A DNA stretch of 55,875 bases from Bacteroidales bacterium Bact_22. Lineage in GTDB: Bacteria; Bacteroidota; Bacteroidia; Bacteroidales; F082. Where the stretch lies: contig LUZN01000022.1 of assembly GCA_001603665.1 (NCBI GenBank), positions 1-55,875 of the forward strand, read 5' to 3'. The notes under the pieces are model-generated. The model saw only the letters and a program-made list of their open reading frames with translations. It was not told the origin of the DNA and made no database searches. The translations under genes were made by a program, and so were the position numbers. Of the stretch, positions 24,334-44,437 are shown in pieces. Every line of letters starts with the position of its first letter. Positions within the stretch are counted from its first letter, which is position 1.

Positions 24334-24491
24334 GTTTCGTCACCACCGCAGACGCATTTTGCATCAGGGTCGAGTGAGTGAGCGCATTTGCGTTCGAATT
24401 TGCCGTTTTTCTTCACAATAGCCTTGATTCCTATCGCCGCAAAGGCCAACAGGACGAGAAACAGCGTAGGAATCAGGAAAATCCAATACAT
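24309..24491 (-). CDS. small Cys-rich membrane protein, NqrM-like
   Basis: 60 residues: one N-terminal transmembrane helix ([20 protein letters not shown]), a basic stretch KKNGKFERK, then four Cys in the pattern CAHSLDP...CVCGG...C. This layout (helix, short basic linker, C...CxCG...C) resembles NqrM/DUF539 proteins, which assist iron insertion into Na+-translocating NADH:quinone reductase. In Vibrio, nqrM follows apbE, and here it abuts apbE convergently. It is coupled to tyrS on the same strand (one-base overlap). The assignment is by pattern and context, not full alignment; it might instead be an unrelated redox-active small protein. Confidence 0.65.
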   Translation of the reverse strand: MYWIFLIPTLFLVLLAFAAIGIKAIVKKNGKFERKCAHSLDPDAKCVCGGDETQCPNHSD

Positions 24492-25912: not shown

Positions 25913-25947
25913 GTCATTTTTGACTAAACTTTATTGATATTTTTTCA

Positions 25948-25955
25948 TAATTTTG
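25948..25955 (+). promoter_or_regulatory. candidate MBOAT gene -7 box
   Basis: TAATTTTG, with TTTG at 25919-25922 as a possible but rather distant -33 partner; only 15 bases separate it from the GTG start. Confidence 0.4.
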
Positions 25956-25970
25956 CAAAAAATATAAAGC

Positions 25971-27389
25971 GTGCTCTTCAATTCCATAGAATATGTCATC
26001 TTTTTACCCATTGTGGTGATGCTGTTTTATCTGCTGCCGCAAAGGTATCGCTGGATGATGCTCTTGGTCGCCAGCTGCACGTTTTATATGTGGTTTGTCC
26101 CAGCCTATATCCTGATACTTCTCGGTACGATAATAATCGATTATTCGGCTGGTATTTTAATGGAGAAACATGCTGATAATCACAAACTTAAGAAACGTTA
26201 TTTTGTAATAAGCATAGTCTCCACCTGCTTGGTGCTTTTCATTTTCAAATATCTCGGATTCGTTAACGACAATTTTGTCGCACTATGCCAAGCTTTAAGC
26301 CTTAACGTCAACACCACTGTCGATTTGATATTGCCGATAGGTCTCTCGTTTCACACCTTCCAGAGCATGAGTTACGTTATCGAGGTGTATCGCGGCAACC
26401 AGAAAGCCGAGCGTAACTTCGGGATTTACTCGCTTTACGTGATGTTTTTCCCTCAGCTCGTCACCGGCCCTATCGAACGTCCAGGCAACCTCCTGCGGCA
26501 GCTCCACGAAGAGAAAAAATTTGAATACGATAATATTTCCAAGGGTTTCCGACTCATCATCTTCGGACTTTTCATCAAGATGGTGGTGGCCGACAACGTG
26601 GGCGCCTACGTCGACATGATTTATGCCGATCCAGGCAAATACAGCTCTTGGGATATCCTCATCGGGATGTTTTTCTATTCATTCCAGATCTATGGCGACT
26701 TCTTCGGCTATTCGACCATAGCGTTGGGAAGCGCCAAGCTCATGGGGTTCTGCATCAGCGACAACTTTAACACGCCTTATCTCTCGAAGAGCATCGCCGA
26801 GTTCTGGCATCGCTGGCACATCTCGCTCTCGACGTGGTTCCGCGACTATGTTTACTTCCCGTTGGGCGGCAGTCGCGTGAAGTTCGGTCGTTGGGCCTAC
26901 AACATCATGGTGGTGTTTATCCTAAGCGGAATATGGCATGGCGCGGCGTGGAACTTCCTCATCTGGGGTGCGGCTCACGGCTTGCTTCACATCGTCGAAA
27001 AAGCCATTTTGAATCATATTCCTGAAAAGGAAAACAGAGGCCGACTGGAAAAAATCATCGTCGACGGCTTCAAGATTGCCAAGACGTTCCTACTTGTGAC
27101 GCTATTTTGGTCGATATTCCGCGCCACCAGCTTCGCCAACATCAGCGAGCTGTTCCAGGCGCTGTTCAACAATTTCGGCGTGACCGAACATCTCGGCATC
27201 GAAAGCAGCATATGGGTTTACCTCGGGCTGTTCATCGTGATGGACATACTGCTGTTTAACAGTCGCTTCGACAGATGGTGCGACAAGCGTCCGGCCGTTG
27301 TGCGTTGGGCCATCTATTTCGTATTGATTTTCATGATAATAGCCTGCTCGAGTGTCAATAATTTCCCGTTTATTTATTTCCAATTCTGA
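25971..27389 (+). CDS. MBOAT family O-acyltransferase (first)
   Basis: 472 residues, starting at GTG, where the protein begins (M)LFNSIEYVIFLPIVV as in AlgI/DltB/PatA-type MBOATs. About 10-12 transmembrane segments. Diagnostic stretches: LPIGLSFHTFQSMSYVIEVY, FPQLVTGPIERP, SIAEFWHRWHISLSTWFRDY and SGIWHGAAWNFLIWGAAHG, the last with the invariant MBOAT His. It moves acyl (usually acetyl) groups across the inner membrane for O-acylation of an extracytoplasmic polymer, and normally needs an SGNH partner, here the next gene 5 bases downstream. First gene of the surface-glycan modification locus. Confidence 0.93.
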   Translation: MLFNSIEYVIFLPIVVMLFYLLPQRYRWMMLLVASCTFYMWFVPAYILILLGTIIIDYSAGILMEKHADNHKLKKRYFVISIVSTCLVLFIFKYLGFVNDNFVALCQALSLNVNTTVDLILPIGLSFHTFQSMSYVIEVYRGNQKAERNFGIYSLYVMFFPQLVTGPIERPGNLLRQLHEEKKFEYDNISKGFRLIIFGLFIKMVVADNVGAYVDMIYADPGKYSSWDILIGMFFYSFQIYGDFFGYSTIALGSAKLMGFCISDNFNTPYLSKSIAEFWHRWHISLSTWFRDYVYFPLGGSRVKFGRWAYNIMVVFILSGIWHGAAWNFLIWGAAHGLLHIVEKAILNHIPEKENRGRLEKIIVDGFKIAKTFLLVTLFWSIFRATSFANISELFQALFNNFGVTEHLGIESSIWVYLGLFIVMDILLFNSRFDRWCDKRPAVVRWAIYFVLIFMIIACSSVNNFPFIYFQF

Positions 27390-27394
27390 TTGCC

Positions 27395-28414
27395 ATGAAG
27401 AAGCTTTTATATAAATTCGCCCTGCTCGCCGCACTTCTGGTTCTGATGAATTGGATTTACGGAAAGTTTTTCTTTAAAAACGACCTTTTGAAACACTCCG
27501 ACGAGGTGCAGCTCGCGTGGAATATCGCCCACGACAGCTGCGCGATGGTGTACACCGGCGAGTCGTCGAACCACACCTTTGCGTGGGCTGACAAGGACAG
27601 GCGTAAAATCAGCGACTTCATCTTCGACCAATTCCCCGAGATGCGCTGCGGCGACATTACAAAAGACGCGTCGCATGCCGAGGTGTACTACTACCTGCTC
27701 AAACATATCCCCGACGACTCGCCGGTGGAGACCGTCATAGTGACTATGAACCTGCGTTCATTCGGGTACAACTGGATTGAGTCGAACCTCGAGACTCCGA
27801 TTCAGAAACAACTGGTGCTCCTGAAAGACAACCCACCGCTCGTGAACCGCTTCAAGCTGGCATTCAAAGCCTACGACATGTCGACAAATGCCGAACGTGC
27901 CGAGCATAGAGTATATCACCGCAACCACGACACCCTAGTGTTTCCTTATAATTTCGAGTATCACACCAACTACGAGTGGGACTACAACACCAACAGAAAA
28001 GGCATAATGAATGCCGACGGCACGCGCAACCAGGAGAAGACGCTGTTGGCAATCACATTCATCCAGCAATATGCCTTCCAGATTCACGATGACAACCCTC
28101 GGGTGAAGGATTTTGACAACATTGTGGAATTGGCCAGACAACGCGGCTGGAACCTGATTTTCAATATCTTAGCTGAAAATACCGAGCAGGCGCAGAACCT
28201 TCTCGGCAATGATCTGGTGTTTTTGATGCGTCAAAATCGCGATTATCTCGTCAACAGATACGGCAACCTGGAGAACGTCACCGTGGTCGACAACCTCGAG
28301 GCTGTTCCCGATCAGTATTTCATCGACCGCACCTTCACCACCGAGCATTACACCGAGGCAGGACGGCGAAGCATCGGTGACAATGTAGCAGAGGCCGTTA
28401 AAAAGTATTATTAG
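27395..28414 (+). CDS. SGNH-hydrolase-like partner of the first MBOAT
   Basis: 339 residues anchored by an N-terminal helix (LYKFALLAALLVLMNWIYG), body periplasmic. No close family name comes to mind, but YTGESSNHTF near residue 55 resembles an SGNH block I (GES nucleophile), and the C-terminal TEHYTEAGRRSIGDNVA resembles block V (His plus following Gly). The organisation is that of DltD/AlgJ-like partners that take an acyl group from the MBOAT and pass it to the polymer. Five bases separate it from the MBOAT; its end overlaps the convergent LTA-synthase-like gene by 17 bases. Confidence 0.75.
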   Translation: MKKLLYKFALLAALLVLMNWIYGKFFFKNDLLKHSDEVQLAWNIAHDSCAMVYTGESSNHTFAWADKDRRKISDFIFDQFPEMRCGDITKDASHAEVYYYLLKHIPDDSPVETVIVTMNLRSFGYNWIESNLETPIQKQLVLLKDNPPLVNRFKLAFKAYDMSTNAERAEHRVYHRNHDTLVFPYNFEYHTNYEWDYNTNRKGIMNADGTRNQEKTLLAITFIQQYAFQIHDDNPRVKDFDNIVELARQRGWNLIFNILAENTEQAQNLLGNDLVFLMRQNRDYLVNRYGNLENVTVVDNLEAVPDQYFIDRTFTTEHYTEAGRRSIGDNVAEAVKKYY

Positions 28415-30806
28415 GCAAGCCTTCGACCTTGATTTTCAAGTCTTTGTATTCTATTTCAAGCTTTTCGGCCGAGAAAAGCCTCATATACATCGGCAGGTCG
28501 ACAATATTTTTTCCGTTAAGGAAGAAAGTGGTCCTCGCTTTAAAGAATTTGTATCCGCCGGCAGACTTAGAACTCATCTCCGAAAAACGGAATGATTTGT
28601 ATAACAACGAGTTACCTTTATTATCGTTAATCTTACATACCACAAATGTCTCATTCGGGTCGGCGTTGTTCTTGATTTTGTAGTCGAACGAGAGTTCGAT
28701 GTACACTTTTTCATAATTACGGTCAAAAATGACAGGTTCTTCGAGTGTGATAGCGCCTCTTTCGGCAGCTTCGGCTGAGACCGTGGCATCTTTCTCGGTC
28801 ACCAGCAAGACATTGAGATTATCCGGTTTTTTCAGCAGAAAATCATTACGGGTGGCGTACCAGTCGATATTTTTATACTGTCGCAGATACTCTTTCATCT
28901 GGTTTTTTATCGAATCGTCGTCAATCTCATCGGCGTAAAGCGTGGAGTCAACGACATAGATACGTTCGCGGTCGAGCATGTAGTTTTTGTGCAGATACTG
29001 CACCACATCCCTGTTGTTGCGCATAAACGCCACCGACTGGTTGCAACGGTACACCGACGATGTGTCAAGCGAGGTGCCGAGCCAATGGCATTCGCTATCA
29101 ACTTGAAATTCATAGTTGCTATGCAAATAAGCATCTAATGTAGGCGCAATGTCATGATGTGTCACTACGCCTTTGAACGTTTTTGGCGTTTTCACCAAAG
29201 GCGAATAGATTATCAGCGGCACGTTATACACCAGCATCGGGTTTGAGTTCACCAGCACGCAGCCCGTGCGGTGGTCGCCGACTATGACAAACACCGTATT
29301 TTCAAACTCAGGCAATGTCTTGTAATAATCGAAAAGCTCTTTTATACAATCATCAGCATACAGATATGTGGCGTACATATAGTCGTTTTTCGTGACATAA
29401 TCTTTCTCACCAGGACCAAATTCCGTCGTCTCGGCAAGCATCTTTTTCACACGTTTGATATATGGCTCCTGACCTTTGAAATAAAACGGTTCGTGTGTCG
29501 ACAAAGTTATGTAAATATCAGTGTTGGGACGGTTGCGCGGCACCGTGTCACGATGCTTGATTGCTGCATTGAACATATCTCTGTCGTACATGCCCCAACT
29601 TTGGTTGTTTTTCATCTCTTCTTTGTTTTCCTGATCGAAGTCGGCCTCCTGAGGATTCATCAGATAACCCACTCCGTTGGCTTCGAAATAGGTGTCTTGC
29701 CCGTCGAAAGCGGCATTTCCGCCATAATAAAACGACAGCGAATAACCGTTTTTCGACATATCTTTAAGGATGGAGTTATGATCAGGGATGGGCCACCAGA
29801 CACGCGCAAAGCCAAGCTTATCGTAAGGTGCCGATGAGAACACGTTGGGCACCACGCCGAATGTACGCTCGGCAAGTGCCAGACAGTTAGGCCAGTAAAG
29901 ACTCTCTTTTTTCAAGCTGTCGAGGAATGGGGTGAACGACATCTTCGGATTCGAGGAACTCAAACGCTGACCGAGGCTCTCGACGATAAGAAACACAAAG
30001 TCAGGAGCTTTGCCGTCGGTGGTTCGGTTGAGAAATCCGCCCAAGACATCAGGGTCGTCGTTAGCGCGCAAGAACGGATAATGTATATCGACGTAGTTGT
30101 AATTCGGGAAACGGCTCTGATACTCCACCGCGTCTTTGAGCACGTTTTCATCGTATGTGCTATAGTCTTCCTCTTGATTTTGCAGGTGATACTGGTAAAA
30201 ATCGTTGACTGTGTATGCAATCTGATTCACAGCCATACAGTAATCCTGATGCGATTTGTAATGTTTTTCCTTGGTTATCAGCGATTTATAATTAAAGAAT
30301 ATCACAAACAGAATCACGATGGCGGTGTATGAGCCGGCAAGCCACGGCGCAATATTCACCTTTCGGTTCCAGAAGCGGAGCAGCAACGAATACGCGACAA
30401 CCGCCGCCAGCACGCCAAACAGGGGCCAGAAAGAGAACTTCACCGAAGAGACCACAATGTTGTACAGTTCTTCGGGCGAATAGATGAAAAACACACGGTC
30501 GAGGGGCTGCGTCACGTTGGCATAATAGCCCATCAGGCAACAGTAGACCACCACGTAGAGCGTGATGAAAACCATCGAGAGCACTCGTGTCGTCTTAGGT
30601 AGAAAATAATCGAGCACCAGATACGGCACCAACAATATAGCATCCACAAAAAACACCACAGTGATATCGAAATACACGCCCGAGAGTATTGTCAGAAACG
30701 CAGGCCAGCCCACGGTTCCGGCTATTTTAAGCATAAAAAAGAACACTATCCGCAGCACAAATGCCAGCGAAAGCCACAAGAGTCCGTATTTGGCAAAATT
30801 TTTCAT
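28398..30806 (-). CDS. LTA synthase/phosphoglycerol transferase family protein (Thr nucleophile)
   Basis: 802 residues. Five transmembrane helices (to about residue 175), a linker, then an extracytoplasmic alkaline-phosphatase-like domain: metal-site VFLIVESLG (Glu276), nucleophile region AERTFGVVP (Thr315), later IYITLSTHEPF and FVIVGDHRTG (Asp/His metal ligands). C-terminal ~110 residues form an extra beta-rich domain absent from classical LtaS. Gram-negative members move phosphoglycerol or phosphoethanolamine to glycans or lipids; the acceptor here is unknown. It is coupled (6-base gap) to the GH16-like lipoprotein upstream. A paralogue lies at 42015-44426. Confidence 0.9.
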   Translation of the reverse strand: MKNFAKYGLLWLSLAFVLRIVFFFMLKIAGTVGWPAFLTILSGVYFDITVVFFVDAILLVPYLVLDYFLPKTTRVLSMVFITLYVVVYCCLMGYYANVTQPLDRVFFIYSPEELYNIVVSSVKFSFWPLFGVLAAVVAYSLLLRFWNRKVNIAPWLAGSYTAIVILFVIFFNYKSLITKEKHYKSHQDYCMAVNQIAYTVNDFYQYHLQNQEEDYSTYDENVLKDAVEYQSRFPNYNYVDIHYPFLRANDDPDVLGGFLNRTTDGKAPDFVFLIVESLGQRLSSSNPKMSFTPFLDSLKKESLYWPNCLALAERTFGVVPNVFSSAPYDKLGFARVWWPIPDHNSILKDMSKNGYSLSFYYGGNAAFDGQDTYFEANGVGYLMNPQEADFDQENKEEMKNNQSWGMYDRDMFNAAIKHRDTVPRNRPNTDIYITLSTHEPFYFKGQEPYIKRVKKMLAETTEFGPGEKDYVTKNDYMYATYLYADDCIKELFDYYKTLPEFENTVFVIVGDHRTGCVLVNSNPMLVYNVPLIIYSPLVKTPKTFKGVVTHHDIAPTLDAYLHSNYEFQVDSECHWLGTSLDTSSVYRCNQSVAFMRNNRDVVQYLHKNYMLDRERIYVVDSTLYADEIDDDSIKNQMKEYLRQYKNIDWYATRNDFLLKKPDNLNVLLVTEKDATVSAEAAERGAITLEEPVIFDRNYEKVYIELSFDYKIKNNADPNETFVVCKINDNKGNSLLYKSFRFSEMSSKSAGGYKFFKARTTFFLNGKNIVDLPMYMRLFSAEKLEIEYKDLKIKVEGLPNNTF

Positions 30807-30812
30807 CTCAAA

Positions 30813-32735
30813 CTATTCTATCACAATTTCAAAAACTTTTCCTTCGATATCGGTTTTATTATAAGGTATCAGGCCTTGCCAGAACACCACCGGCGCCCAC
30901 CATTCCGAGTAATGATACTCTTGGGTGACGATGCAGAGCATCTGGTTGTCAGGAATGCTGGAGTAGTCGTCGCACATATATCCCACCACCGTCATGTTGT
31001 CGGGCGATGGTCCTAGCCTCCAGGTGATGGATGTGGGCTCCCAGTCAATCTCATAATAATAGTAGTCGTTTTTAAAGACATCGTTGCTTATCGGCGTTCT
31101 TATTGTCATGGCCTGCATCACAGGGTTCCAGCGCATCGCCTCGTAGGTGCCGTTGCCGTATGGCATACGGAACACGCCAGCGTCATATTTTCTGGGGTCG
31201 CGACATGCCATATCCCAGTTGGTGCATCCGAAGATCACGTCGCTGTTGAGAGTCGCGTCTTCGACTTTCGAGCCACGCTCCCATTCTTTATAGTATTGTT
31301 TAGGCCAAAACTTCGATGCTTTAGCTATCTCGATGTCGATTTCCGAGTAGTAATACTCTGTAAAGCGTTCAGGGTCAAGGCTCATGCTCTCTTTTCTGAC
31401 ATATCCTGTCTTGCTCGGGCGTCGGTTGTTCCATTCATGGCTAGCCTGGTGAATGAGCCAGAACGCATTGGTGAGTCCGTCCCAGATGTTTTCGTCGTTG
31501 AGCATGACCGGGAACTTGATTTTGCCACGGAATTTGCCATAGGTGAAGCCCAGTCGCGTACGTATGCCTGTCGATTCTTTCTTCAGATTATTGATGTCGT
31601 CGTTGCCTGGATTTATCAAGACGATGCTGTTGTCGTTTTTGTCAATCATGACGGTCTTTCCGGGAGTGTCGCTCACCACCGGCCAGTCGTAGAGCAGCTG
31701 CGTGCTGTCGAAACGTGTCTTGTTGGCCTCGTACTGAGCGCGTGTGTACGGGTTCTCATCACTGACAACGTCTTGAATCACAGGGATGTTGCGCAAGCAA
31801 TACTGACGGCTCACATCGCTGAAAAACTGCTCAAACAGTGCGTCGGAATAAATCGAATCGGTAGAGGCGGTAACATCGTTGTACAAGCCATATTCAGGCG
31901 TGATTACGGCTCTGGTCTTCAAAATGCGGTCGCTGACAATCACGTCGACACCTTTAATGTTTTTATTGGTAAAATAAGAATACGGATTCACAAACCGGCC
32001 GTTTTCGTCAGTCATACCGATGTTTTTCACGTATTCGGGGATATGGCTCAGCGCTTCTTCGTCGCACACCACGAGCATAAACGAGTAGCAGCCCACGCGC
32101 GGGTTGCGTTTCCAACGGTTGTTGCAGTCGCCATTGTTGATTTGCGATGCCACTATCCACTTGGCATCCAGACGCAGCTGTGTCTCGACGCTGTTGCGGT
32201 TCACCGCCGCCTTCTCAACCACCGACTGATACCATTCCTGCACATTTTTAATATTATTGATAATCGACTCGATATTCTCTTCCGAATACGGGTTTTCGGT
32301 CATGTCCTGTCCATAAAAACGACGCTCATCACGAGGATTTCCAACAATCCGCACAGCATCGACCACCTTGCCGTTTTTCTCGATCTTCTTGAATCCGACG
32401 CTCACATCCTCCCAACTGCCATAAAAATTTTCATAGCTTAACTCATTGTTATTGGGGAACTTATAGCTTTCATTCTGATAAAAAATCTTATAATAATAGT
32501 TTTTCTTCCCGTCAAATTCAAATACAAACATCCCGTCATCGCATTGTCTCACCGAAGGAATCACAATACCTTGATTTACAACGTTTTTCAGGTCCATATC
32601 AAGCACCACGGTGTCGCCTTCCGGGAAATTCACCATAGGATTAAAGCCCAAATCATTGCAATTCTTTGATTTTTCACATCCCGTCAAGGTAAAAGCCAGG
32701 ACAATCGCACAAAATAAGTATTTTAAATATCTCAT
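30813..32735 (-). CDS. lipoprotein with C-terminal GH16-like catalytic domain
   Basis: 640 residues from the ATG at 32735 (alternatives at 32741 and 32750); the signal MRYLKYLFCAIVLAFTLTGC ends in a lipobox Cys20. Residues ~164-198 carry a W...KA...DAkW motif shared with the AlgJ-like protein at 35615-37153. The last ~250 residues look like a GH16 jelly roll: FTYGKFRGKIKFPV (cf. GH16 'TYGRFEARIK'), NAFWLI, the catalytic box SEIDIEI (E-x-D-x-E, Glu465/Glu469) and YYEIDWEPTSITWRL (cf. 'YAIEWTPDRIRWYV'). Predicted outer-membrane or periplasmic endo-glycanase/transglycosylase acting on the locus's polymer. The N-terminal half is unlike known domains. The GH16 call rests on motif pattern. Confidence 0.75.
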   Translation of the reverse strand: MRYLKYLFCAIVLAFTLTGCEKSKNCNDLGFNPMVNFPEGDTVVLDMDLKNVVNQGIVIPSVRQCDDGMFVFEFDGKKNYYYKIFYQNESYKFPNNNELSYENFYGSWEDVSVGFKKIEKNGKVVDAVRIVGNPRDERRFYGQDMTENPYSEENIESIINNIKNVQEWYQSVVEKAAVNRNSVETQLRLDAKWIVASQINNGDCNNRWKRNPRVGCYSFMLVVCDEEALSHIPEYVKNIGMTDENGRFVNPYSYFTNKNIKGVDVIVSDRILKTRAVITPEYGLYNDVTASTDSIYSDALFEQFFSDVSRQYCLRNIPVIQDVVSDENPYTRAQYEANKTRFDSTQLLYDWPVVSDTPGKTVMIDKNDNSIVLINPGNDDINNLKKESTGIRTRLGFTYGKFRGKIKFPVMLNDENIWDGLTNAFWLIHQASHEWNNRRPSKTGYVRKESMSLDPERFTEYYYSEIDIEIAKASKFWPKQYYKEWERGSKVEDATLNSDVIFGCTNWDMACRDPRKYDAGVFRMPYGNGTYEAMRWNPVMQAMTIRTPISNDVFKNDYYYYEIDWEPTSITWRLGPSPDNMTVVGYMCDDYSSIPDNQMLCIVTQEYHYSEWWAPVVFWQGLIPYNKTDIEGKVFEIVIE

Positions 32736-32759
32736 AATCATAATATTCATTAATTCTTG

Positions 32760-32767
32760 CAAAGGTA
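32760..32767 (-). promoter_or_regulatory. -7 box for the GH16-like/LTA-synthase operon
   Basis: Minus-strand TACCTTTG fits TAnnTTTG, about 25 bases before the ATG at 32735. It lies 43 bases from the divergent box at 32811-32818. Confidence 0.55.
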
Positions 32768-32810
32768 CAAAATATTTAGAAATCTTGGCATTCCATATCG
32801 GAAAAAACTT

Positions 32811-32818
32811 TAATTTTG
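32811..32818 (+). promoter_or_regulatory. -7 box for the AlgJ-MBOAT-AlgJ operon
   Basis: TAATTTTG, with TTG at 32785-32787 as a -33 candidate 23 bases upstream. The ATG is at 32838. Confidence 0.55.
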
Positions 32819-32837
32819 CAGTAATTATTATAAGTTG

Positions 32838-34181
32838 ATGAAAGAAGTTTTTCATAAAATATTATTTGTCATCACGATAGCGGTTTTGGTTCTCATTTTT
32901 GTCCAAACCATGACTGGTTTCATAAAGATCAAACCATTGAATGGTGCTGTGGTCAAGACCGAGATGCCCAAACTGACTTATAATAATTATGCCAACAGCT
33001 CGTTTCAGAGAGATTTCGAGAATTATTGCCGTGCCAATTTCGGTTTTCGAGAGTTCTCGCTGCGTTTATACAACCAACATCTCTGGGATTTTTACCGTAC
33101 CACGCGCAATAAAACCGTCGTGATAGGTCGTAGCGACTGGCTTTTCGGGAAACGTGAGGCGCGTGACTATTATATCAGTGGCACCTACGACTACACCAAC
33201 GACACTATGGTCATGAAACGTCAGTTTTACCAAGAGGCGCTGCGTCTTTACAAGGTCCAAAATATTTTGGAAGAATATAACACATTCATATTCACCACAT
33301 TACTACCAGGAAAAACATTCGTTTTCAACGAATATCTTCCTGAGAATCCGGGGCCATATATGAAGCCGTTTCATGCAGTTTACTATTTTGCACAGGTGTT
33401 CGACAGTCTCGGAATCAATTATATTGATTTGCAAAAAGACTATGAGTATCATAAGGAAAAGACCGACTATCCTTTGTTCCCGAAGACTGGCATGCATTGG
33501 ACGTATATTGCAGCAGAGCATTCATTCGACAGCATTTTGCGTTACATCGAGCACAAAACCGACATAAACCTGCACAACTATACAATAGGCGAGAAATACA
33601 TAGACAAGCCACATCATCCCGACACAGACCTTGAAGACGTGCTCAACCTCCTGCGTCCCATCCGGCCAAACACAAACTACTATGCTGATGTGACTGTCGA
33701 CGACGACACTACAGCAACCAGACCGGTCTTCATCCTTGTAGGCGACTCGTATTTCTGGAACATCAACAATTCCATACCTTTACATTCGATATTCAGCAAA
33801 TACGCATATTGGTATTACAACAGCACTATCTATTTCAATCCAAGCTGCAATCATACAAGCAAAATCGACATCCTTGAGGAACTTATCAACACCGACATCA
33901 TAAACCTTTCATATTCTCCAAGGCAGCTTTATGTTTTCAGCAACAAATTCTTGCCAAAGGCTCTGCTTTATCTGACACACGACGACAGTGAAATTGACAG
34001 CACTTTGCAAGTTATAGCCTCATCCGTAAAAAAAGATACGGACGAAGAACGGCTGAAAGACGCCAAAGACATACTTTTTGCCGACCCCGAAAAGTATTTC
34101 CCTGATTTGGGCGGCAGCGACATTCCGACAACAAGAAACAAACGCATAAACGACATAATTATCAACAATTTAAACAAATAA
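32838..34181 (+). CDS. AlgJ/AlgX-like SGNH O-acetyltransferase (first paralogue)
   Basis: 447 residues from the ATG at 32838 (a TTG lies one codon upstream). N-terminal membrane anchor (ILFVITIAVLVLIFVQTMTG), then a periplasmic SGNH-like domain. AlgJ/AlgX landmarks: FGFREFSLRLYN, SDWLFGK, LFPKTGMHWTYIA with the catalytic-type His, and ILVGDSYFWN with the nucleophile Ser (about residue 304). The Asp of the usual DxHW motif is replaced by Gly (GMHW). Predicted to transfer acetyl from the adjacent MBOAT to an exopolysaccharide. Two bases separate it from the MBOAT. It aligns along its length with the paralogue at 35615-37153. Confidence 0.87.
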   Translation: MKEVFHKILFVITIAVLVLIFVQTMTGFIKIKPLNGAVVKTEMPKLTYNNYANSSFQRDFENYCRANFGFREFSLRLYNQHLWDFYRTTRNKTVVIGRSDWLFGKREARDYYISGTYDYTNDTMVMKRQFYQEALRLYKVQNILEEYNTFIFTTLLPGKTFVFNEYLPENPGPYMKPFHAVYYFAQVFDSLGINYIDLQKDYEYHKEKTDYPLFPKTGMHWTYIAAEHSFDSILRYIEHKTDINLHNYTIGEKYIDKPHHPDTDLEDVLNLLRPIRPNTNYYADVTVDDDTTATRPVFILVGDSYFWNINNSIPLHSIFSKYAYWYYNSTIYFNPSCNHTSKIDILEELINTDIINLSYSPRQLYVFSNKFLPKALLYLTHDDSEIDSTLQVIASSVKKDTDEERLKDAKDILFADPEKYFPDLGGSDIPTTRNKRINDIIINNLNK

Positions 34182-34183
34182 AT

Positions 34184-35602: not shown

Positions 35603-35614
35603 CGTGATGATGTC

Positions 35615-37153: not shown

Positions 37154-37156
37154 ATC

Positions 37157-38722
37157 CTAATAATTCAAGGATATCTCGGCGTTTTCAAACCGCATCGAAC
37201 CGTGTTTTCTGTTCCAGAAATACATATTCACGTTTTTACCTTTCAATGACTTGTTGAAAGGCGTCAAATAACGGTATGAGAACTCGAATTTCTGGGTTTC
37301 GCCGTTATTAAAACTCTTAGGAATCTCTATCCGATCCCAGATAACACCCGGGATATCCAGCACCAGCCACGGCAAGTCGGCCGAAGTGTCGAGACTCGTG
37401 ATGTCGACGCTTCCGTTGATGCTTAGCACTATCATCCTCTCTTCGAAATCCGTTTTTGCAAAATTATAATACTCAGCATCGCTCGCAATCACGCCCGACA
37501 CCGTATTGTCTTCAAAAGCTGAGGTGTTTTCCAATCGGTCAAGGTTTTGGGCGATGAAATAGCCGAAGACATACACGAAAAATGCCAAGAAAAAGGTTTT
37601 TGCGACTATTCCGGCATAATGTGTCGCCTTGTTTTCACGGATATGAATCCTGTCGAGCAATGCTATCACATTGTCATACAACGCTTTAGCAGCTATAGCA
37701 ACGGCCCAGACTATCAGCAGAAACATCACGCCCGACCACAAATGGCCCCAAGCACCCGTGTAAGTGTTGGCGACTTTCAGGACTGGGCTCCTGAAGATGG
37801 CATGGGTGGCAAACAAGACCATCGAGATACCGCCAAAATACTCAAGAAACACCGCGAGTTCCTTCTTCCTGACAGGCACTGCCTTCAAGCCCTGATATGC
37901 GAAAACCATTATCAAGGTCAGCGACAGGAAGGTAAACGGATAAAATGCCGCATAATAATTTCCGAGACAGAATGCCGTCACTGCCAGAAGCAGCCATAAC
38001 GCATTGATTCTCTTATCATTACTGAAAGCCAGCAATATTCCAAGACAGAACTCCGGCAGATGTCCAGGCACATTTTGCATGATAATGGTGCCACCGTATA
38101 ACGTCAAGACCTCCCTAAACAGGAAAATCAGCGAATACGACACGACACAGATGACGGCGAATGCCTTCCAGCGCCATTTTTCAATGATTTTGAAAAGAAA
38201 CGGAAACACCAGATAACACTGGAATATCAGGCCGAAGAACCACCACGGTCCGTTGACGCTGAGACCCGATTTTGGCAGTAAAGTATGTATCAGCAGCAGC
38301 TTGTAGCCTATCTCGCGCTTGTCGTAATCGCTAATCATCGCGCCTTCGATCAGCACTTTCGAGAAAATGAAAAACACCACGCCTATAAGCAGCAGCGGAT
38401 ACAGCTTTTTCAACCTGACGACGACAAACGACTCCCACGAGCGCTGATGCCGCATCATCGACACCGCCAAGCCGAAGCCGCTTATGAAGATAAACAGCTG
38501 CACTCCGTAATGTCCCAGATAGCTGAACAGGATATTAACGAATTCGCCCGGTTTGTTGCCAAGAAGAGCAAAGAAATTAGTCACCCGGTCAGGTGAGAAC
38601 TCAAATTCATTCTCACCTGGCGCAGGTATTAACCAATGAAAATAGTTGTGAAGAACTATGCAAAGGATGCCAAATCCCTTGATAATCGAAGTATCACGTT
38701 TGGTATATCCTTTGAAAACCAT
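37157..38722 (-). CDS. acyltransferase-3 family membrane protein with C-terminal beta domain
   Basis: 521 residues from the ATG at 38722; an in-frame start at 38746 would overlap the upstream gene by 20 bases. N-terminal acyltransferase-3 (OafA/NodX-like) membrane domain of about 10 helices: TSIIKGFGILCIVLHNYFHW holds the family's conserved His, and YGVQLFIFISGFGLAVSMM follows. After the last helix (about residue 400) is a ~115-residue extracytoplasmic segment ending FRFENAEISLNY-like (MRFENAEISLNY), predicted beta-sandwich. It probably acylates a lipid-linked or surface saccharide. It lies 4 bases downstream of the oxidoreductase gene and meets the AlgJ-like gene tail to tail (3-base gap). 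Confidence 0.87.
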   Translation of the reverse strand: MVFKGYTKRDTSIIKGFGILCIVLHNYFHWLIPAPGENEFEFSPDRVTNFFALLGNKPGEFVNILFSYLGHYGVQLFIFISGFGLAVSMMRHQRSWESFVVVRLKKLYPLLLIGVVFFIFSKVLIEGAMISDYDKREIGYKLLLIHTLLPKSGLSVNGPWWFFGLIFQCYLVFPFLFKIIEKWRWKAFAVICVVSYSLIFLFREVLTLYGGTIIMQNVPGHLPEFCLGILLAFSNDKRINALWLLLAVTAFCLGNYYAAFYPFTFLSLTLIMVFAYQGLKAVPVRKKELAVFLEYFGGISMVLFATHAIFRSPVLKVANTYTGAWGHLWSGVMFLLIVWAVAIAAKALYDNVIALLDRIHIRENKATHYAGIVAKTFFLAFFVYVFGYFIAQNLDRLENTSAFEDNTVSGVIASDAEYYNFAKTDFEERMIVLSINGSVDITSLDTSADLPWLVLDIPGVIWDRIEIPKSFNNGETQKFEFSYRYLTPFNKSLKGKNVNMYFWNRKHGSMRFENAEISLNY

Positions 38723-38726
38723 AATC

Positions 38727-41700
38727 TTACTTAAATGCGTTCTCACTCAAGCCTTTGCCTGTGATGGCGAGGTCTTTCATATAACCTGGGACCGGCTTGC
38801 CGAGATATTTGTCGACGTAAATCTTAGCCAGATACTGGCCAAGCATGAATCCGTGACCGCGCAAGCCTGTCAACAGACCGACCTCCGGGTCGACGATGTA
38901 ACGCGGCTCGGTGTAGCGGCCAGCCCAGCAAGCTAAGAAGCTCACTTCGCCGAGGTTCGGGATCCACTCTGCGAAGACCTCAGAAACGATCTCCAAGAAC
39001 TCCTTGCTGTTATACTTAATGTTCTGACGTGCCTCGTAAGCGTCGGTGTCAGGGCTGGCACAGCCGATGATCTGGCCTGTGTGTGCCCACTGCTGTCCAT
39101 AAACAGCGCTGAAGCCTTTGTAGTGACGACGGTCGATGATCATGTCGAGCGGACCTCCGTTGGGTCCCATCATCGGCAAACGGCGTGTGATAAACGCCTG
39201 GTGTTTGACAGGATACAAGCCTGTGTCTAATCCGAGCATGTCGTTGAACTTCTCGGCGCCCCATCCCATCGCGTTGACGAAGTGGTCGCAGGTGTATTCA
39301 ACGTAAGCGCCTTCGTGGGTGCGCACCAAGGTAATATAATGTCCGCCGACTTTTTGCACGTGCAGCAGCTCGCAGTCTTCAAAGTAACGACCGCCATTCT
39401 GCACGCCGATGCCACGGATGTAGTCGATAACTCTACCAGGTGTTGCCTGCCAGCAGTCACGGGTAATCAAAGCATGGCTGTAAGTGTCTTTTTTATCGTC
39501 CCACAACGGTGAAATCTCTTTCTTGAAGTCCTTGCGGTCGATCATATATGCATCGCTCCAAGCGCGCGAGGCGTCGAGTGATTTATAGGTTGCCTCATCA
39601 TGCACCAGGTTGACGTAATGTGTCAGGTGGTAGTTGATGTTGTGAACCTTCTGCATGTTCTTGAAGATCTCGTGGTTGTGCACCGCGATATCTGCGATAT
39701 CAGGGTTTGAGAACGCCGGACGGCCGCCACCGATGCAACGCCACGAAGCACCACGGCTATAGTTGATCATCACAGGCTTCTTGCCTGCCTCCGAGAAGTA
39801 GCGGAACAAAGCACTACCAGCGATACCGCCACCTGCGATAAACACCTCGACCCTCTCTTTCTTCACGTCGTTCATCTTCGGGAACACGAATGTTTCCTTA
39901 GTCTTCGGGTTGTACAAGTCATCCAGGCTCACCTGATTCGACAGAGGAGCACGCGGTGTGGCATCGCCAACAAGCTCGATGCCGTAGGTGCGCAAAATCT
40001 GACGTGCACGTGGAATACATCTCTTTCCGCGGCATGGACCCATACCCATACGTGTGATGTGCTTCAACTCGTCGACAGAGATGGTCTTGCGGTCACCGAT
40101 GACACTCAAAACTTTGTCTAACTTGATATCTTCGCAGTGGCAGACGTATGTCTCTGATTCCACTTCCTTCAATGGCTTGAATTCTATCGGTTTCGGATAG
40201 TTTTCCTTGACGATGAAGCCACGAGCCTCGACCAGTTTACTCTTATCAATATCTTTTGCGATGACACGCGCCACGTTGGTCTTGTTGTTCTTCTTCAAAA
40301 CCTTCTCCACAACGCCCTCGCCTACTTTCTTGCCGTTGTCGTCGACAAGGAACACCTCAACGCCTTCGTTTACCTCATATTCCACAGGCAGGAACAGCGT
40401 ATTCTTATTCATGTCGTAGCCGAAGATTGCCAAGCCTGGGCAGTGGTTCACGCAGTTCATACAGCCTATGCACTTGTCGTAATCGATAACCGGCACCGTG
40501 TTTGTGCTCGACTTGGTGATGGCACCTTGCGGACAGCTGAACGAGCAAGGATTACAAGCGAATCCGTAGACGCAGTCGGCGATGACAAACGGCTTTGCCA
40601 CCATTCTCTCTGCCGTCGGCTTGTTAGGCTCCTGTAACACTCTGATCGGGTGCTGCTGCGACTCGATATATTGCTTCGAAACCTCGAGATATTCATCATA
40701 ATTGAATCTCAAGCCCATGTTCTGTGCCACTTCGAAGGCGACTTGTTTTCCGCGTAAAACGGCGCTTGTACCTTCACCGATACGGATTGCATCGCCTGCA
40801 CCGTAGGTGTTCAAGCCAAACACCTCGCGACCCTTGACGAGCAGCTGACTGTCAGGAATCAAACCTGTGCAGATATTGATGATGTCGATGTCGTCAATCA
40901 CCTGTTCAGTTCCTGGAATCGGCTTGAAATTCTCGCATTTTGCGATGACCGCGCCCACAACGCCTGTATGGTCTTTGTTCGGAATAGCCTTCAACAAAAC
41001 ATGCGATGTCATGATCGGGATGCCGAGTCTACGCACGCGGTTTGCCTGCACCGGGAAGCCGCCTTCATGGTCCATACCTTCAATGATAGCCTTGATATGG
41101 GCGCCGGCTTGCATGCCCTGATATGATGTGAGATAGCCTATGTTGCCGGCGCCTACCGTCAACACTTTCTTACCCAAAAGAGTGTGCTCCTGGTTCATCA
41201 TCTTCTGGAACACTGCAGCGGTATACACTCCCGGGAGGTCATCGTTTTCAAATGTCGGCATAAACGGCACGGCACCTGTTGCAACCACAAGATGCTCTGC
41301 GTCGATATACGCCACCTCACCAGTCACTATATTCTTGATAGCTATGCGTTTGCCTTCAAGCAAGTCCCAAACCACATTATTCAACAAAATTCCTTCGTGG
41401 TTGTCGCCAGCAAGGGTCTTAGCGATGTCAAAGCCACGCATTCCACCGAACTTCTGCTCCTTCTCGAAGAAGAAGAACTGGTGTGTCTGCATGTTAAACT
41501 GTCCGCCTATCTTTGCATTATTATCCACAACAACATTGCTGATGCCCAGTTTGTTCAGCTGTTCACGACAAGCCAAGCCCGCAGGACCTGCGCCGATGAT
41601 GGCGACCTGAGTCTTGTAAACCTTCACCTCGCGCGGCTGAAGCTCTTTAGCGTCAGGAAGCACGTTAGCCTCGTTGTTTATGGGCTTCACTTCCTTCACT

Positions 41701-41957
41701 CCGTCAACCAAAGTGATGCAGATACGGCGAATCTTGCCGTCGACCAGCATCTCGCAGGCGCCGCACTTACCGATACCGCAGTTAAGGCTTCGGTTACGTC
41801 CGTCAAGACTGTGGCTGTGAACCGGAAAACCAGCCTGATGCAAAGCGGCAGCGATGGTATAGCCTTTCTTGCCAACCACTTTTTTGCCATCATAAATAAA
41901 CTCTACTGACTCGCCCTCGGCGATGTCAAGAATAGGATGTTTGGTGATTTTATACAT
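38727..41957 (-). CDS. multi-domain FAD/Fe-S oxidoreductase, HcnA-HcnB-HcnC-like fusion
   Basis: 1076 residues from the ATG at 41957 (a TTG three codons upstream is possible). Domains in order: Fer2-type [2Fe-2S] domain (Cys60, Cys65, Cys68, Cys80; CGIGKCGACEM); pyridine-nucleotide/FAD oxidoreductase (VAIIGAGPAGLACREQL at ~118-134); a 2x[4Fe-4S] ferredoxin insert (CNPCSFSCP and CIGCMNCVNHCP); a BFD-like [2Fe-2S] domain (CHCEDI...GPCRGKRC); and a C-terminal DAO-type FAD oxidase/dehydrogenase (VFIAGGGIAGSALFRYF). This joins in one chain what HcnA, HcnB and HcnC (or opine/proline dehydrogenase alpha/beta subunits) provide separately. The substrate is probably an imino or amino acid; which one cannot be read. 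It has its own promoter at 41996-42026. Confidence 0.88.
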   Translation of the reverse strand: MYKITKHPILDIAEGESVEFIYDGKKVVGKKGYTIAAALHQAGFPVHSHSLDGRNRSLNCGIGKCGACEMLVDGKIRRICITLVDGVKEVKPINNEANVLPDAKELQPREVKVYKTQVAIIGAGPAGLACREQLNKLGISNVVVDNNAKIGGQFNMQTHQFFFFEKEQKFGGMRGFDIAKTLAGDNHEGILLNNVVWDLLEGKRIAIKNIVTGEVAYIDAEHLVVATGAVPFMPTFENDDLPGVYTAAVFQKMMNQEHTLLGKKVLTVGAGNIGYLTSYQGMQAGAHIKAIIEGMDHEGGFPVQANRVRRLGIPIMTSHVLLKAIPNKDHTGVVGAVIAKCENFKPIPGTEQVIDDIDIINICTGLIPDSQLLVKGREVFGLNTYGAGDAIRIGEGTSAVLRGKQVAFEVAQNMGLRFNYDEYLEVSKQYIESQQHPIRVLQEPNKPTAERMVAKPFVIADCVYGFACNPCSFSCPQGAITKSSTNTVPVIDYDKCIGCMNCVNHCPGLAIFGYDMNKNTLFLPVEYEVNEGVEVFLVDDNGKKVGEGVVEKVLKKNNKTNVARVIAKDIDKSKLVEARGFIVKENYPKPIEFKPLKEVESETYVCHCEDIKLDKVLSVIGDRKTISVDELKHITRMGMGPCRGKRCIPRARQILRTYGIELVGDATPRAPLSNQVSLDDLYNPKTKETFVFPKMNDVKKERVEVFIAGGGIAGSALFRYFSEAGKKPVMINYSRGASWRCIGGGRPAFSNPDIADIAVHNHEIFKNMQKVHNINYHLTHYVNLVHDEATYKSLDASRAWSDAYMIDRKDFKKEISPLWDDKKDTYSHALITRDCWQATPGRVIDYIRGIGVQNGGRYFEDCELLHVQKVGGHYITLVRTHEGAYVEYTCDHFVNAMGWGAEKFNDMLGLDTGLYPVKHQAFITRRLPMMGPNGGPLDMIIDRRHYKGFSAVYGQQWAHTGQIIGCASPDTDAYEARQNIKYNSKEFLEIVSEVFAEWIPNLGEVSFLACWAGRYTEPRYIVDPEVGLLTGLRGHGFMLGQYLAKIYVDKYLGKPVPGYMKDLAITGKGLSENAFK

Positions 41958-41995
41958 ACCTTTCAATTTTGCTAATCATTTCCTAAAATGAAATG

Positions 41996-42026
41996 CAAAG
42001 TTAATAAGGTGTTTTTATAAAAACAA
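41996..42026 (-). promoter_or_regulatory. promoter of the fusion oxidoreductase gene
   Basis: Minus strand: -33 TTG at 42026-42024, 20-base spacer, -7 TAACTTTG at 42003-41996, ATG at 41957. The -33 box lies inside the last codons of the upstream LTA-synthase-like gene. Confidence 0.65.
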
Positions 42027-44426
42027 GAAAATTTTGATTTTTTTCAAAGTCACAGTGTGCTCCGGATCCCACCACGCATCCCATTCGGCCGGGACGAGAT
42101 ACATTTCCAGCTGCGTTTCATCCGAATTATTGGTAGGAAACATCATCGAAAGTTCCATTTTCTCCCACGTATCGGCTTGATAATCATAGTTTTTGATGTA
42201 TTTTGAAACACAATCCGAAAACTCAGTGCTGTTCATCTTATCGCCCGAGCAACGCATTCCGATATGAATGAAATGATGAATCGGCACCTGCTTGGTGAAT
42301 TTCACGTCGGCCTCAACGACAATTTTCATCACCGAAGGCATGTTTTCAAATTTTTCTTTGAAAAAGAATAATGTATCAGGGGTGTGAACGCTGGGTCTTT
42401 CAGCATTTGTAGCACAAAAAACGGAATCGGGCAGACTTATTTCCTTTACAGTTTTAAAATCTCTAGAAGAAAAAATAGGATTTCTGATGATTTTATTATT
42501 CAGATAAACATAATTATCGACATAAACCAAGGCATCGAAACGCTCTTTATAATATTCAAAATCAACGTTGTCGGCCTCCGAAAGCTTAAGGCTGTCGCCG
42601 ATATGATAAGCTTTCCCGTCTTTAAAATTCAAGAAAACATCATTATCGACAAAAGCCACAGGATGTATCGAATAGGTAAACAGATATCCGATATAATTAG
42701 ATTTCACATCGCTCAGCGTATCGAGTCCATCCGACATCCAGTGCACCGTCTCGGGAGTCCTCACACCAAAATTCTCGCGCAACAGAGCCACCAACGATGG
42801 CGTGATGTCGTCGTGCGACACCAGCGAATTAAACCGTTTCGCACTTTTCAGCAGCGGCGACCAGATAATCAGCGGCACGTTGTAGGCGTCGAGGTACGAA
42901 TCCTTCTTCAATCCCATATTATGGTCGCCAGTAATCACGAAAATGGTGTTGCCATCTGAATGTAACTCATTGTAACTCTTGAAGAAACGTCGCACAGCAT
43001 CGTCGGCATACAGCGTGGCAGCCAGCTTGCCGATATTGCCCTTCTCAGCCTTCCTCACCTTCTTGGGCAAATCCGACATTATCCGCTTCGTCTCGTCGTA
43101 ATAATACTTATTGAGTTTTTTATCTTTCAAAGCTAACTTCTCATGCTGCGTTATCGTGATGAAAAGATCCAGCTCTGGTTTGTTATCATTTTGATTTTCA
43201 AGAACTTGCAACGACTTGTCAAACATCGTCATGTCGTTGTAACCCCAGAAATCGCCATCTTTGTTTCCCGACCTGTCGGCCTGAAATTCCTCGTAAAACG
43301 GCGACAGATAATCGACTCGCTGCGCAACGAGATAGTCGTAAACCTTGTCGAAGGTAAACAGGCCCGAATAGAACGCGTTGGTACGATAACCGTTGGCCTT
43401 CAAAATCGTGAAAAGACTGTTATGATCGGGGATTTCGCCAAACTGGAAGCCTCTTACACCATGCGGTACCGATCCCGTTATCGACGGCACAGCACCGAAA
43501 CTGCGCGGCGTGGTCGACAGACAGTTGGTCCACAGCAGCGACGACCTCGACAACGAATCCAAAAACGGCGTGTAACAAACGCCGTAATCGTTGATGCCAA
43601 ACAAATCGGAGCCCAGCGACTCGACAATGATTATCACCACGTTGACTTTCTCGTCTGATTTCTCGAAATATGGCCCAAGGACGTTTTCTGTATTGTCTTT
43701 ACGCTCTATAACAAACTCATTATCAACACTTTCACGATTCGGAAACATCCGACGGTAAATCTCCAGATACTCGTCGTGTGACTTCACACTGCTCATGAAC
43801 TCGGCATTTTGAACCGTATTATTGGCATCGGCCGACTTGATTTTCAAAATATCGTCAACGCAATACCATATCTTATTCGCCACATACTCATCCTGATGTG
43901 GTTTCGCCAGCAGAACCACCGGAATCGACACCAACATCAAGCCGATCGTGACGTACGACAGCATCCTGCTCGACAGCTTCTTCGAATACCAGTCCATAAA
44001 TGCGATATAAGCCGCAAAAACCACGAAAATAAGCGATATCAGAGCCGGACTGAGGAAACTTCTTACCGTGAACCAAGTCTCCCACAATGGCCTGTAAACC
44101 ATCTCCTGGCCCATCATCAATCCTGTTGAATGATGATAGATGACAAAGCCCATCTCAGTGAACGCCAGAATGGCAAACAGCAGCAGCGCCAAAGCCTTCG
44201 CCAATTGTTTTGAAAGGAAGAAAAATGCCGCAAATACTATAAAAACGACGAAAACCTGACAGCCGCAAGCCACCAGATTTGCCCATAGAAAACCACTATA
44301 TGATTCTATCTTGATATCGCCCGACCATGCCATTATCAGCTCCACAGCCCTCTCGACGAAAATCGTCGCCAGAAACAGCAACGACATCCTCGAAAATTTC
44401 CTCAGCATGGTGGTTATATTATTCAT
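42015..44426 (-). CDS. LTA synthase/phosphoglycerol transferase family protein (Ser at nucleophile position)
   Basis: 803 residues with the same plan as the protein at 28398-30806: five N-terminal helices, then a sulfatase/alkaline-phosphatase fold with VNVVIIIVESLGSD (Glu269), TPRSFGAVPS and FVITGDHNMG, and a C-terminal beta-rich extension of about 110 residues (from DTLFFFKEKFE). The position of the Thr nucleophile is Ser309 (AGT codon at 43500-43502). A Ser could still act as nucleophile, but the substitution may alter substrate or rate. It starts 11 bases after the RNA methyltransferase gene, so it probably lies at the end of the greA operon. Confidence 0.9.
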   Translation of the reverse strand: MNNITTMLRKFSRMSLLFLATIFVERAVELIMAWSGDIKIESYSGFLWANLVACGCQVFVVFIVFAAFFFLSKQLAKALALLLFAILAFTEMGFVIYHHSTGLMMGQEMVYRPLWETWFTVRSFLSPALISLIFVVFAAYIAFMDWYSKKLSSRMLSYVTIGLMLVSIPVVLLAKPHQDEYVANKIWYCVDDILKIKSADANNTVQNAEFMSSVKSHDEYLEIYRRMFPNRESVDNEFVIERKDNTENVLGPYFEKSDEKVNVVIIIVESLGSDLFGINDYGVCYTPFLDSLSRSSLLWTNCLSTTPRSFGAVPSITGSVPHGVRGFQFGEIPDHNSLFTILKANGYRTNAFYSGLFTFDKVYDYLVAQRVDYLSPFYEEFQADRSGNKDGDFWGYNDMTMFDKSLQVLENQNDNKPELDLFITITQHEKLALKDKKLNKYYYDETKRIMSDLPKKVRKAEKGNIGKLAATLYADDAVRRFFKSYNELHSDGNTIFVITGDHNMGLKKDSYLDAYNVPLIIWSPLLKSAKRFNSLVSHDDITPSLVALLRENFGVRTPETVHWMSDGLDTLSDVKSNYIGYLFTYSIHPVAFVDNDVFLNFKDGKAYHIGDSLKLSEADNVDFEYYKERFDALVYVDNYVYLNNKIIRNPIFSSRDFKTVKEISLPDSVFCATNAERPSVHTPDTLFFFKEKFENMPSVMKIVVEADVKFTKQVPIHHFIHIGMRCSGDKMNSTEFSDCVSKYIKNYDYQADTWEKMELSMMFPTNNSDETQLEMYLVPAEWDAWWDPEHTVTLKKIKIFLFL

Positions 44427-44437
44427 TTTTCAATGAT

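Follow-up and report, generated by a model that had tools for sequence, protein, structure and literature searches.

A putative glycan-decoration island in a variable chromosomal slot of gut Bacteroidales, with MBOAT, SGNH, acyltransferase-3 and LtaS-like enzymes beside a GH16-like lipoprotein

The closest described relatives of the genes discussed here belong to the MBOAT-SGNH systems PatA/PatB, AlgI/AlgJ/AlgX and WssH/WssI, the DltB/DltD pair, the LtaS and VP1736-type transferases, the enzymes OpgB, OpgE and OpgC of osmoregulated periplasmic glucans (OPGs), and glycoside hydrolase family 16 (GH16). As far as the available text of PMC12148441 goes, the membrane-bound O-acyltransferase (MBOAT) PatA passes its acyl group to an SGNH protein through the tyrosine of a C-terminal FXYXXF motif, and in the Dlt system the acyl shuttle is a separate protein, DltX, which also carries FXYXXF. 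Relatives of these families meet in ten genes (positions 25971-44426) on contig LUZN01000022.1 of Bacteroidales bacterium Bact_22 (GCA_001603665.1), whose genome of 2.06 Mb lies in 83 contigs and is 99% complete; the window analysed is this one contig in its full length of 55,875 nucleotides. The ten genes are bounded by tyrS and a gene for an RlmL-like methyltransferase, and it appears rather probable that they represent a variable glycan-decoration island whose products would act on one envelope polymer, and that a gut Bacteroidales genus keeps this island in a fixed slot between tyrS at one edge and an oxidoreductase gene, g9, with rlmL at the opposite edge. Nearly every part is known by family, whereas the combination, a repeat shared by acyltransferase and lipoprotein, fusions of acyltransferase-3 (AT3) with LtaS-like (LTAS-like) enzymes, and the exchange slot are new as far as the searches tell; for this gene combination, the open-licence PubMed Central (PMC) literature yielded nothing beyond one peptidoglycan esterase paper.

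The original prediction had listed two acetyl-channel enzymes, three SGNH-type transferase candidates, two phosphoglycerol-transferase-like proteins, an AT3 protein and a glycan-cleaving lipoprotein, with no glycosyltransferase. This inventory agrees with the family matches listed below, one SGNH candidate (g2) being suggested by a low-confidence structure model only and the lipoprotein (g4) by its EIDIE motif and a GH16 profile match, its Pfam score lying below the cut-off; no glycosyltransferase family matched any of the ten island proteins in a Pfam scan. Absent from the inventory was g9, the 1079-amino-acid (aa) oxidoreductase at 38727-41966 inside the stretch, which is probably a conserved flank outside the decoration system: the reasons for leaving it out were its position at the edge of the slot and its 98% identity among the four loci in which it occurs, a conservation that most island genes do not show.

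24491..25786, minus strand: flank, tyrosyl-tRNA synthetase tyrS, slot edge (PF00579; same edge in relatives)
25971..27389, plus strand: g1, MBOAT acyltransferase 1 of PatA/AlgI type, 472 aa (PF03062 4.9e-25; C-terminus FIYFQF; WHGAAW)
27395..28414, plus strand: g2, partner of g1, DltD-like SGNH candidate, 339 aa (weak model; invariant motifs; adjacency to g1-like MBOATs)
28398..30806, minus strand: g3, LtaS/OpgB-like transferase 1, 802 aa (PF00884 8.1e-25; PDB 3lxq 8.7e-16)
30813..32735, minus strand: g4, GH16-like lipoprotein, 640 aa, lipobox LTGC (EIDIE; hhalign against canonical GH16; start by alignment)
32142..32261, minus strand: shared repeat of about 40 aa within g4 (repeat model E 2.8e-18)
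32838..34181, plus strand: g5, AlgX-like SGNH protein 1, about 447 aa (PF16822 7.3e-10; N-terminal hydrophobic segment)
34184..35602, plus strand: g6, MBOAT acyltransferase 2, 472 aa (PF03062 1.3e-27; C-terminus FIYFRF)
35615..37153, plus strand: g7, AlgX-like SGNH protein 2, 512 aa (PF16822 8.4e-12; two C-terminal repeat copies)
36797..36913, plus strand: shared repeat, g7 copy 1 (repeat model E 4.5e-20)
37031..37150, plus strand: shared repeat, g7 copy 2 (repeat model E 1.3e-19)
37157..38746, minus strand: g8, AT3 with C-terminal beta domain (PF01757 2.6e-29)
38727..41966, minus strand: g9, FAD/Fe-S oxidoreductase, 1079 aa (PF01266, PF07992, Fe-S domains)
42015..44426, minus strand: g10, LtaS/OpgB-like transferase 2, 803 aa (PF00884 2.1e-34; PDB 3lxq 3e-9)
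44438..45628, minus strand: flank, RlmL-like methyltransferase, opposite slot edge (PF01170, THUMP; same edge in relatives)

The start of g4 is, judging by alignment, probably near 32735 (Met41 of the mechanically called open reading frame, ORF) rather than at 32855, that is, 120 bases further in.

Shared modules and gene fusions

A repeat of about 40 aa, with a consensus near IRNDPEWMEALKEKAEKNGISLEEALELDAEWV, is common to the AlgX-like proteins and the GH16-like lipoprotein. A repeat model seeded by pattern from both protein families and then iterated finds it on 65 of 76 AlgX-like ORFs, in one to three C-terminal copies, and on 21 of 23 GH16 ORFs; elsewhere among 441 ORFs it occurs only on one 125-aa fragment at the end of a stretch, presumably an AlgX-like tail. 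Some AlgX-like and MBOAT ORFs are counted twice here, as L040/L123 (G002:C16), L042/L127 (G010:C76) and L033/L247 (G040:C50) apparently represent the same contigs, to judge by their equal lengths. Each family also leads to the other: when built only from AlgX-like copies, the model recovers 21 of the 23 GH16 proteins, and when built only from GH16 copies it recovers 56 of the 76 AlgX-like proteins; reversed sequences give one match, and the two repeats align at 98% in a profile-profile comparison. All three copies detected in the own genome at E 0.05 lie inside the island, as do its only two MBOATs, a grouping that exceeds chance; the repeat is present in 39 of 119 genomes of the order. Its sharing by AlgX-like and GH16 proteins suggests a common substrate. 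No paper on this repeat was found in the open-licence PMC literature.

A second link joins the AT3 and LTAS-like proteins, whose C-terminal domains are related (hhalign 97.7%, E 1.1e-11) and which are fused into single proteins in two genomes, G036 (L124_3, 1155 aa) and G067 of another family (L235_2, 1207 aa). Domain and fusions together suggest a common substrate for these enzymes as well. Counted at E 1e-20 over 80 genomes, an AT3 gene lies within 6.5 kb of an LTAS-like gene, or is fused to it, in 15 of 17 genomes, the exceptions being G009 and G077. In the available text of a review on AT3 proteins (PMC9558356), SGNH domains are the commonest fusion partner and alanine racemase the second, the word sulfatase does not occur, and whether stand-alone AT3 proteins need a partner, SGNH or otherwise, is posed as a question. 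No paper combining both terms of an AT3-phosphoglycerol transferase fusion was found in the open-licence PMC literature.

Enzyme families of the island

Both MBOATs of the whole genome (E 0.001), g1 and g6, sit in the island and pass the PF03062 cut-off, and a PFIYF[RQK]F C-terminus together with WHGxxW is present in 49 of 49 MBOATs of the collected set, from which exact duplicates only had been removed. The WHG histidine and the FXYXXF terminus are features of the described MBOAT-SGNH systems, as is the adjacent SGNH-type protein with an N-terminal hydrophobic segment and a conserved Ser and His; in the alignment of AlgX-like proteins H221 and W222 are invariant (77/77) and S305 is kept in 75 of 77. 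The island differs from those systems in that its AlgX-like proteins mostly carry the C-terminal repeats shared with GH16 and stand beside LTAS-like and AT3 genes, and in that g5 and g7 lack an Asp two positions before the His, a pair represented in WssI by Asp205/His207 (PMC10302187, in the part of the text available). The invariant Asp232 and Asn271 of the AlgX-like proteins may compensate for this residue, to judge from the alignment. Four MBOAT genes per about 8-15 kb occur on contigs G008:C74, G010:C76 and G020:C27 as repeated acyltransferase cassettes, those of G008 and G010 interleaved with AlgX-like genes.

An MBOAT and SGNH pair with FXYXXF is the architecture of PatAB (PMC12148441, available text), and peptidoglycan O-acetylation of this type, with unrelated genes as neighbours, might be proposed on that ground. 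However, the MBOAT number ranges from 0 to 10 across 29 genomes of the genus and arrays occur with differing AlgX-like proteins, so that a single conserved peptidoglycan substrate is not expected; GH16 and LTAS-like proteins also fit peptidoglycan poorly, and this explanation looks quite improbable.

The partner of g1 is less easily placed. The g2 protein has one N-terminal hydrophobic segment, many of its relatives reach about 490 aa with a C-terminal extension, and G55-E56-S57 and T316-E317-H318 are invariant across an alignment of 18 sequences, the window's own included. Neither Pfam (above cut-off) nor NCBIfam (at E 0.001) gave a match for it, and sequence comparison with the PDB gave nothing credible; a structure model of low confidence (mean pLDDT, the predicted local distance difference test score, 53.5) places DltD and GDSL hydrolases at the top ranks of Foldseek, with DltD best (E 0.019, probability 0.96) and none at E 0.001. 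On this model g2 may be regarded as an SGNH/DltD-like candidate. The C-terminal extension of the long g2 relatives, compared with the LTAS domain by hhalign, scored 20.6% in one run and 79.8% with the roles swapped. A g1-like MBOAT stands beside a g2 homologue in 19 of 20 loci, the own locus included, and the two genes are a separable cassette of their own.

As an MBOAT with a candidate DltD-like partner, the g1-g2 pair recalls DltB/DltD, and a teichoic-acid-like pathway could be envisaged, in which the LTAS-like enzymes polymerise glycerol phosphate and the MBOAT/SGNH proteins attach D-alanine to it, on the model of LtaS and Dlt in Firmicutes. The resemblance of g2 to DltD in the weak model, matches of the DltB model to both MBOATs and matches of the LTAS profile to LtaS structures agree with such a pathway. 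Yet the DltB matches (TIGR04091), at 166.9 bits for g1 and 169.8 bits for the other MBOAT, amount to less than half of the cut-off of 375, the shuttle peptide of the island MBOATs is part of their own C-terminus whereas DltB relies on a distinct protein, DltX (PMC12148441, available text), and no DltA was found above cut-off in the genome, which has six weak matches; among 14 control genomes 12 also match, two of them above cut-off. On these three observations D-alanylated teichoic acid was rejected. We know of no place for a GH16 glycanase in a teichoic-acid pathway either, and very little credence is left to the explanation as a whole.

The proteins g3 and g10 each combine five N-terminal hydrophobic segments with an extracytoplasmic sulfatase-fold domain, an arrangement that they share with LtaS and VP1736-type enzymes together with the Thr/Ser nucleophile position and the metal-site residues. 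E276, H438, D511 and H512 are found in 16 of 16 aligned LTAS-like sequences, and the position after an invariant Arg holds Thr in 13 of 16 and Ser in three, with R314-T315 in g3 and Ser309 in g10; we take the Thr position to be the LtaS nucleophile and the listed residues to be the LtaS site. The LTAS profile matches VP1736 (6.5e-25) and solved LtaS structures (e.g., 4uoo, 9.4e-8), and in a set of 13 LTAS-like proteins five match the LtaS model (best E 2.9e-13) and five the OpgB model (best 1.7e-11), g10 having no match to either curated model at E 0.001. The island enzymes depart from LtaS and VP1736 in the Ser of g10 and in an extra C-terminal beta domain, present in g3. By analogy, the group transferred would most likely be phosphoglycerol from phosphatidylglycerol; the phospho-polyol assignment of the original prediction would follow from family resemblance only. 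The AT3 protein g8 scores 102.8 bits with PF01757 against a cut-off of 31. A lipoprotein of about 240 aa, resembling GDPD/PLC-type phosphodiesterases by motif, is also encoded in these islands, frequently close to LTAS-like genes (L033, identical to L247, L114, L115, L116, L124, L177, L239, L241 and L245); the single member scanned had no Pfam match above cut-off.

The combination of a phospho-group transferase with an AT3 acyltransferase on one glycan is also that of OpgB/OpgE with OpgC. An OPG-like periplasmic beta-glucan might therefore be the substrate, with the LTAS-like enzymes in the role of OpgB/OpgE, the AT3 in that of OpgC and the GH16 protein trimming the glucan; GH16 enzymes often cut beta-glucans. 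Within the available text of the sources, Escherichia coli OPGs bear phosphoglycerol, phosphoethanolamine and succinyl groups (PMC3818809), and the stand-alone AT3 proteins include MdoC and OpgC (PMC9558356). Against this, OpgG (PF04349) gave no match in the own genome at E 0.001, an E. coli control being positive, and a complete OPG system was rejected on that result; the island further differs from the OPG enzymes in the C-terminal domain common to its AT3 and LTAS-like proteins, in the fusion of the two in two genomes, and in the added MBOAT/SGNH sets and GH16-like protein. To our knowledge OPGs involve no MBOAT/SGNH step, and an OPG-like system is considered unlikely.

The lipoprotein g4 contains the ExDxE motif of GH16 with its surrounding segments and a W-x-P-x-x-I-x-W motif, and EID[IF]E is kept in 32 of 32 homologues. 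Its family profile aligns with canonical GH16 (11 sequences chosen by motif from 25 PF00722 loci) at 93% in hhalign (E 3.2e-7) with the motif columns in register, whereas five other profiles used as controls reached 0.53% at most; at E up to 0.1, 17 of 26 family members match PF00722, the best at 1.6e-4. Large insertions, a long repeat-bearing N-terminal region and its lipoprotein nature set g4 apart from GH16 enzymes. The g4 product is a probable glycan-cutting lipoprotein. A protein family of about 610 aa, none of whose members is among the window's island genes, is encoded directly next to GH16 in 11 of 20 loci (L119, L120 and L122-L130), and the L125 member combines a CotH kinase domain (PF08757, 8.8e-36) with a type IX secretion tail.

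Linkage and exchange in related genomes

Besides the own genome, 22 genomes gave strong matches, and stretches of 14-20 kb were fetched round the GH16 gene in 20 of them, all except G018 and G060. Among these 20 loci, MBOAT genes occur in 17, AlgX-like genes in 16, LTAS-like genes in nine and blast-recognised AT3 genes in five. Locus L124 has no MBOAT and contains LTAS genes and the AT3-LTAS fusion, and L132, from another family, has no other member of the set (it is the same locus as L182 of G074, counted once here and once in the set of ten described below). In G004 the GH16 locus (L130) lacks an MBOAT and its stretch stops at the contig end, and a second, unjoined contig (L248) opens with an end fragment of GH16 followed by AT3, MBOAT, AlgX and LTAS genes. 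MBOAT, AlgX and GH16 all lie on one strand in L034 (Candidatus Colimorpha merdihippi) and L036, and L177, from another family, is a compact set with GDPD-like, AT3 and LTAS genes facing AlgX, MBOAT and GH16 genes. The set is therefore linked across relatives but without fixed composition: the co-occurrence implied by the original prediction is seen in the MBOAT counts and in the 15 genomes with AT3 and LTAS genes together, and a single fixed unit is not.

The content of the chromosomal slot itself varies. In 12 genomes (G000, G042, G016, G025, G031, G005, G038, G011, G024, G034, G045 and G040) the tyrS edge is found with an island behind it, and wherever a stretch reaches far enough the opposite side is closed by g9 or rlmL. 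Between these edges there are zero to four AlgX-like genes, zero to two MBOAT genes, and a GH16 gene that is present or absent. A different lipoprotein replaces GH16 in G038, G011 and G045, and likewise in G034, where it lies on a separate contig beside g9; three of five such lipoproteins match GH5 (PF00150) above cut-off, those of L244 and L240 being alike by eye without such a match. These GH5-like lipoproteins are encoded close to AT3 or LTAS genes where GH16 is absent (L237, L238, L244, L246 and L240). The pattern suggests that exchange likely moves the decoration enzymes along with a glycosidase lipoprotein suited to them.

That the polymer would be made elsewhere, as originally proposed, agrees with the lack of glycosyltransferases in the island and with polymer genes on another contig of the genome, namely four glycosyltransferase genes together with those for a flippase-like protein (PF13440) and an initiating sugar transferase (PF02397). 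The idea of a self-contained unit did not hold up, as g1-g2 is separate and slot content varies. Invertible promoters were also considered and set aside: scanning 25700-44700 for repeats turned up gene paralogy in three cases (the AlgX pair twice, the MBOAT pair once), an inverted pair within g2, and shorter matches read as chance. The pair in the g2 coding sequence (27544-27736) consists of 25-nucleotide arms, 88% complementary and 143 nucleotides apart. Elsewhere in the window, a PorV/PorP-like protein (sub-threshold) adjoins a 1444-aa protein without Pfam match (46614-52049), and a GH92-type protein with an F5/8 C domain is encoded at 109-3171.

Several observations weigh against a common decoration system as described above. 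At the level of the enzymes, the LTAS profile also matches sulfatases, and g3 reaches 30.1 bits against a curated OpgB cut-off of 574, g3 being the only one of the set of 13 for which bits were set against the curated LtaS and OpgB cut-offs; g4 reaches 19.3 bits where PF00722 requires 22, finds no credible counterpart in PDB sequence searches, and yields a structure model of pLDDT only 34 from a three-sequence alignment; and g5 and g7 have Gly two positions before the conserved His, where Asp stands in only 11 of 77 AlgX-like proteins. The repeat is missing from 11 of 76 AlgX-like ORFs, g5 among them, and is not exclusive to AlgX-like and GH16 proteins, since it also occurs on GT-C-type membrane proteins: carriers classified for 29 loci comprise 18 AlgX-like proteins (one broken), eight GH16 proteins and three others, one of which is a PMT_2-type membrane protein, and such repeat-bearing membrane proteins adjoin GH16 too (L176, a PMT_2 match, and L175, by our reading). 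At the level of linkage, 11 of the 20 GH16 loci have no LTAS and 15 no blast-recognised AT3; only four of ten GH16 loci outside the genus contain both MBOAT and AlgX (L174, L177, L178 and L189), and three of nine is the fairer count because L189 was fetched for its AlgX match.

In a rival explanation the slot is a hotspot of independent envelope-modification cassettes, each with its own substrate (peptidoglycan, lipopolysaccharide or capsule, lipids), so that their common location would imply no joint function. The MBOAT1-g2 pair shares the GH16 contig in only two of the eight genomes that have both, slot content differs among genomes, and g9 at the slot edge resembles a metabolic enzyme, all of which agree with such a hotspot. 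It accounts poorly, however, for the repeat shared by AlgX-like and GH16 proteins, the C-terminal domain shared by LTAS and AT3, the two AT3-LTAS fusions and the compact set in another family, and has a minor, though appreciable, chance of being correct. The likelihoods attached to the several rivals overlap, and their sum with that of the preferred explanation may differ from unity.

GT-C-type membrane proteins, mostly with GT2 genes, were also noted near GH16 or AT3/LTAS genes in L175, L176, L189, L246 and L235; L176 and one L235 protein match PMT_2, the other GT-C calls are our reading, and some of these proteins carry the repeat.

Proposed working and its meaning

The preferred explanation, a variable island decorating one envelope polymer, builds on the gene content, the intact motifs, the linkage across genomes, the shared modules and the AT3-LTAS fusions; the reactions, their donors, the sharing of one polymer, and where and in which order the steps take place are put forward conditionally. 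Each MBOAT would move an acyl group from cytoplasmic acyl-CoA to the Tyr of its own C-terminal FIYFxF, outside the inner membrane, and the partner SGNH protein (g2 for g1, g5 or g7 for g6) would take it onto its own Ser and pass it to the envelope polysaccharide. Both LtaS/OpgB-like enzymes would transfer a phospho-group through their Thr or Ser nucleophile, and the AT3 protein would add a further acyl group beside, or onto, the substituent so attached. The GH16-like lipoprotein may serve as a trimming or remodelling glycanase on the same polymer, brought to the same substrate or assembly by the repeat that it has in common with the AlgX-like proteins.

A more specific version is offered as conjecture, and we hold it rather doubtful: in a modular assembly spanning the envelope, the repeat would act as a docking or substrate-handing link between AlgX-type acyltransferases of the inner membrane and a lipoprotein glycanase, AT3 and LTAS would constitute one machine making an acylated phosphoglycerol-type substituent, and such modules would be swapped at the slot, altering the chemistry of the surface. 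Acylation by AT3 of a phospho-substituent added by LTAS is its boldest element, for which WcjE is a precedent, this AT3 being reported to O-acetylate 1-phosphoglycerol in pneumococcal capsule (PMC9558356, available text).

If the proposal is correct, a gut Bacteroidales genus would vary the chemistry of its surface polymer while leaving the polymer genes unchanged. The island would also provide two handles on how MBOAT-SGNH and AT3 enzymes choose their partners, namely the repeat shared with a glycanase and the fusions of AT3 with LTAS.

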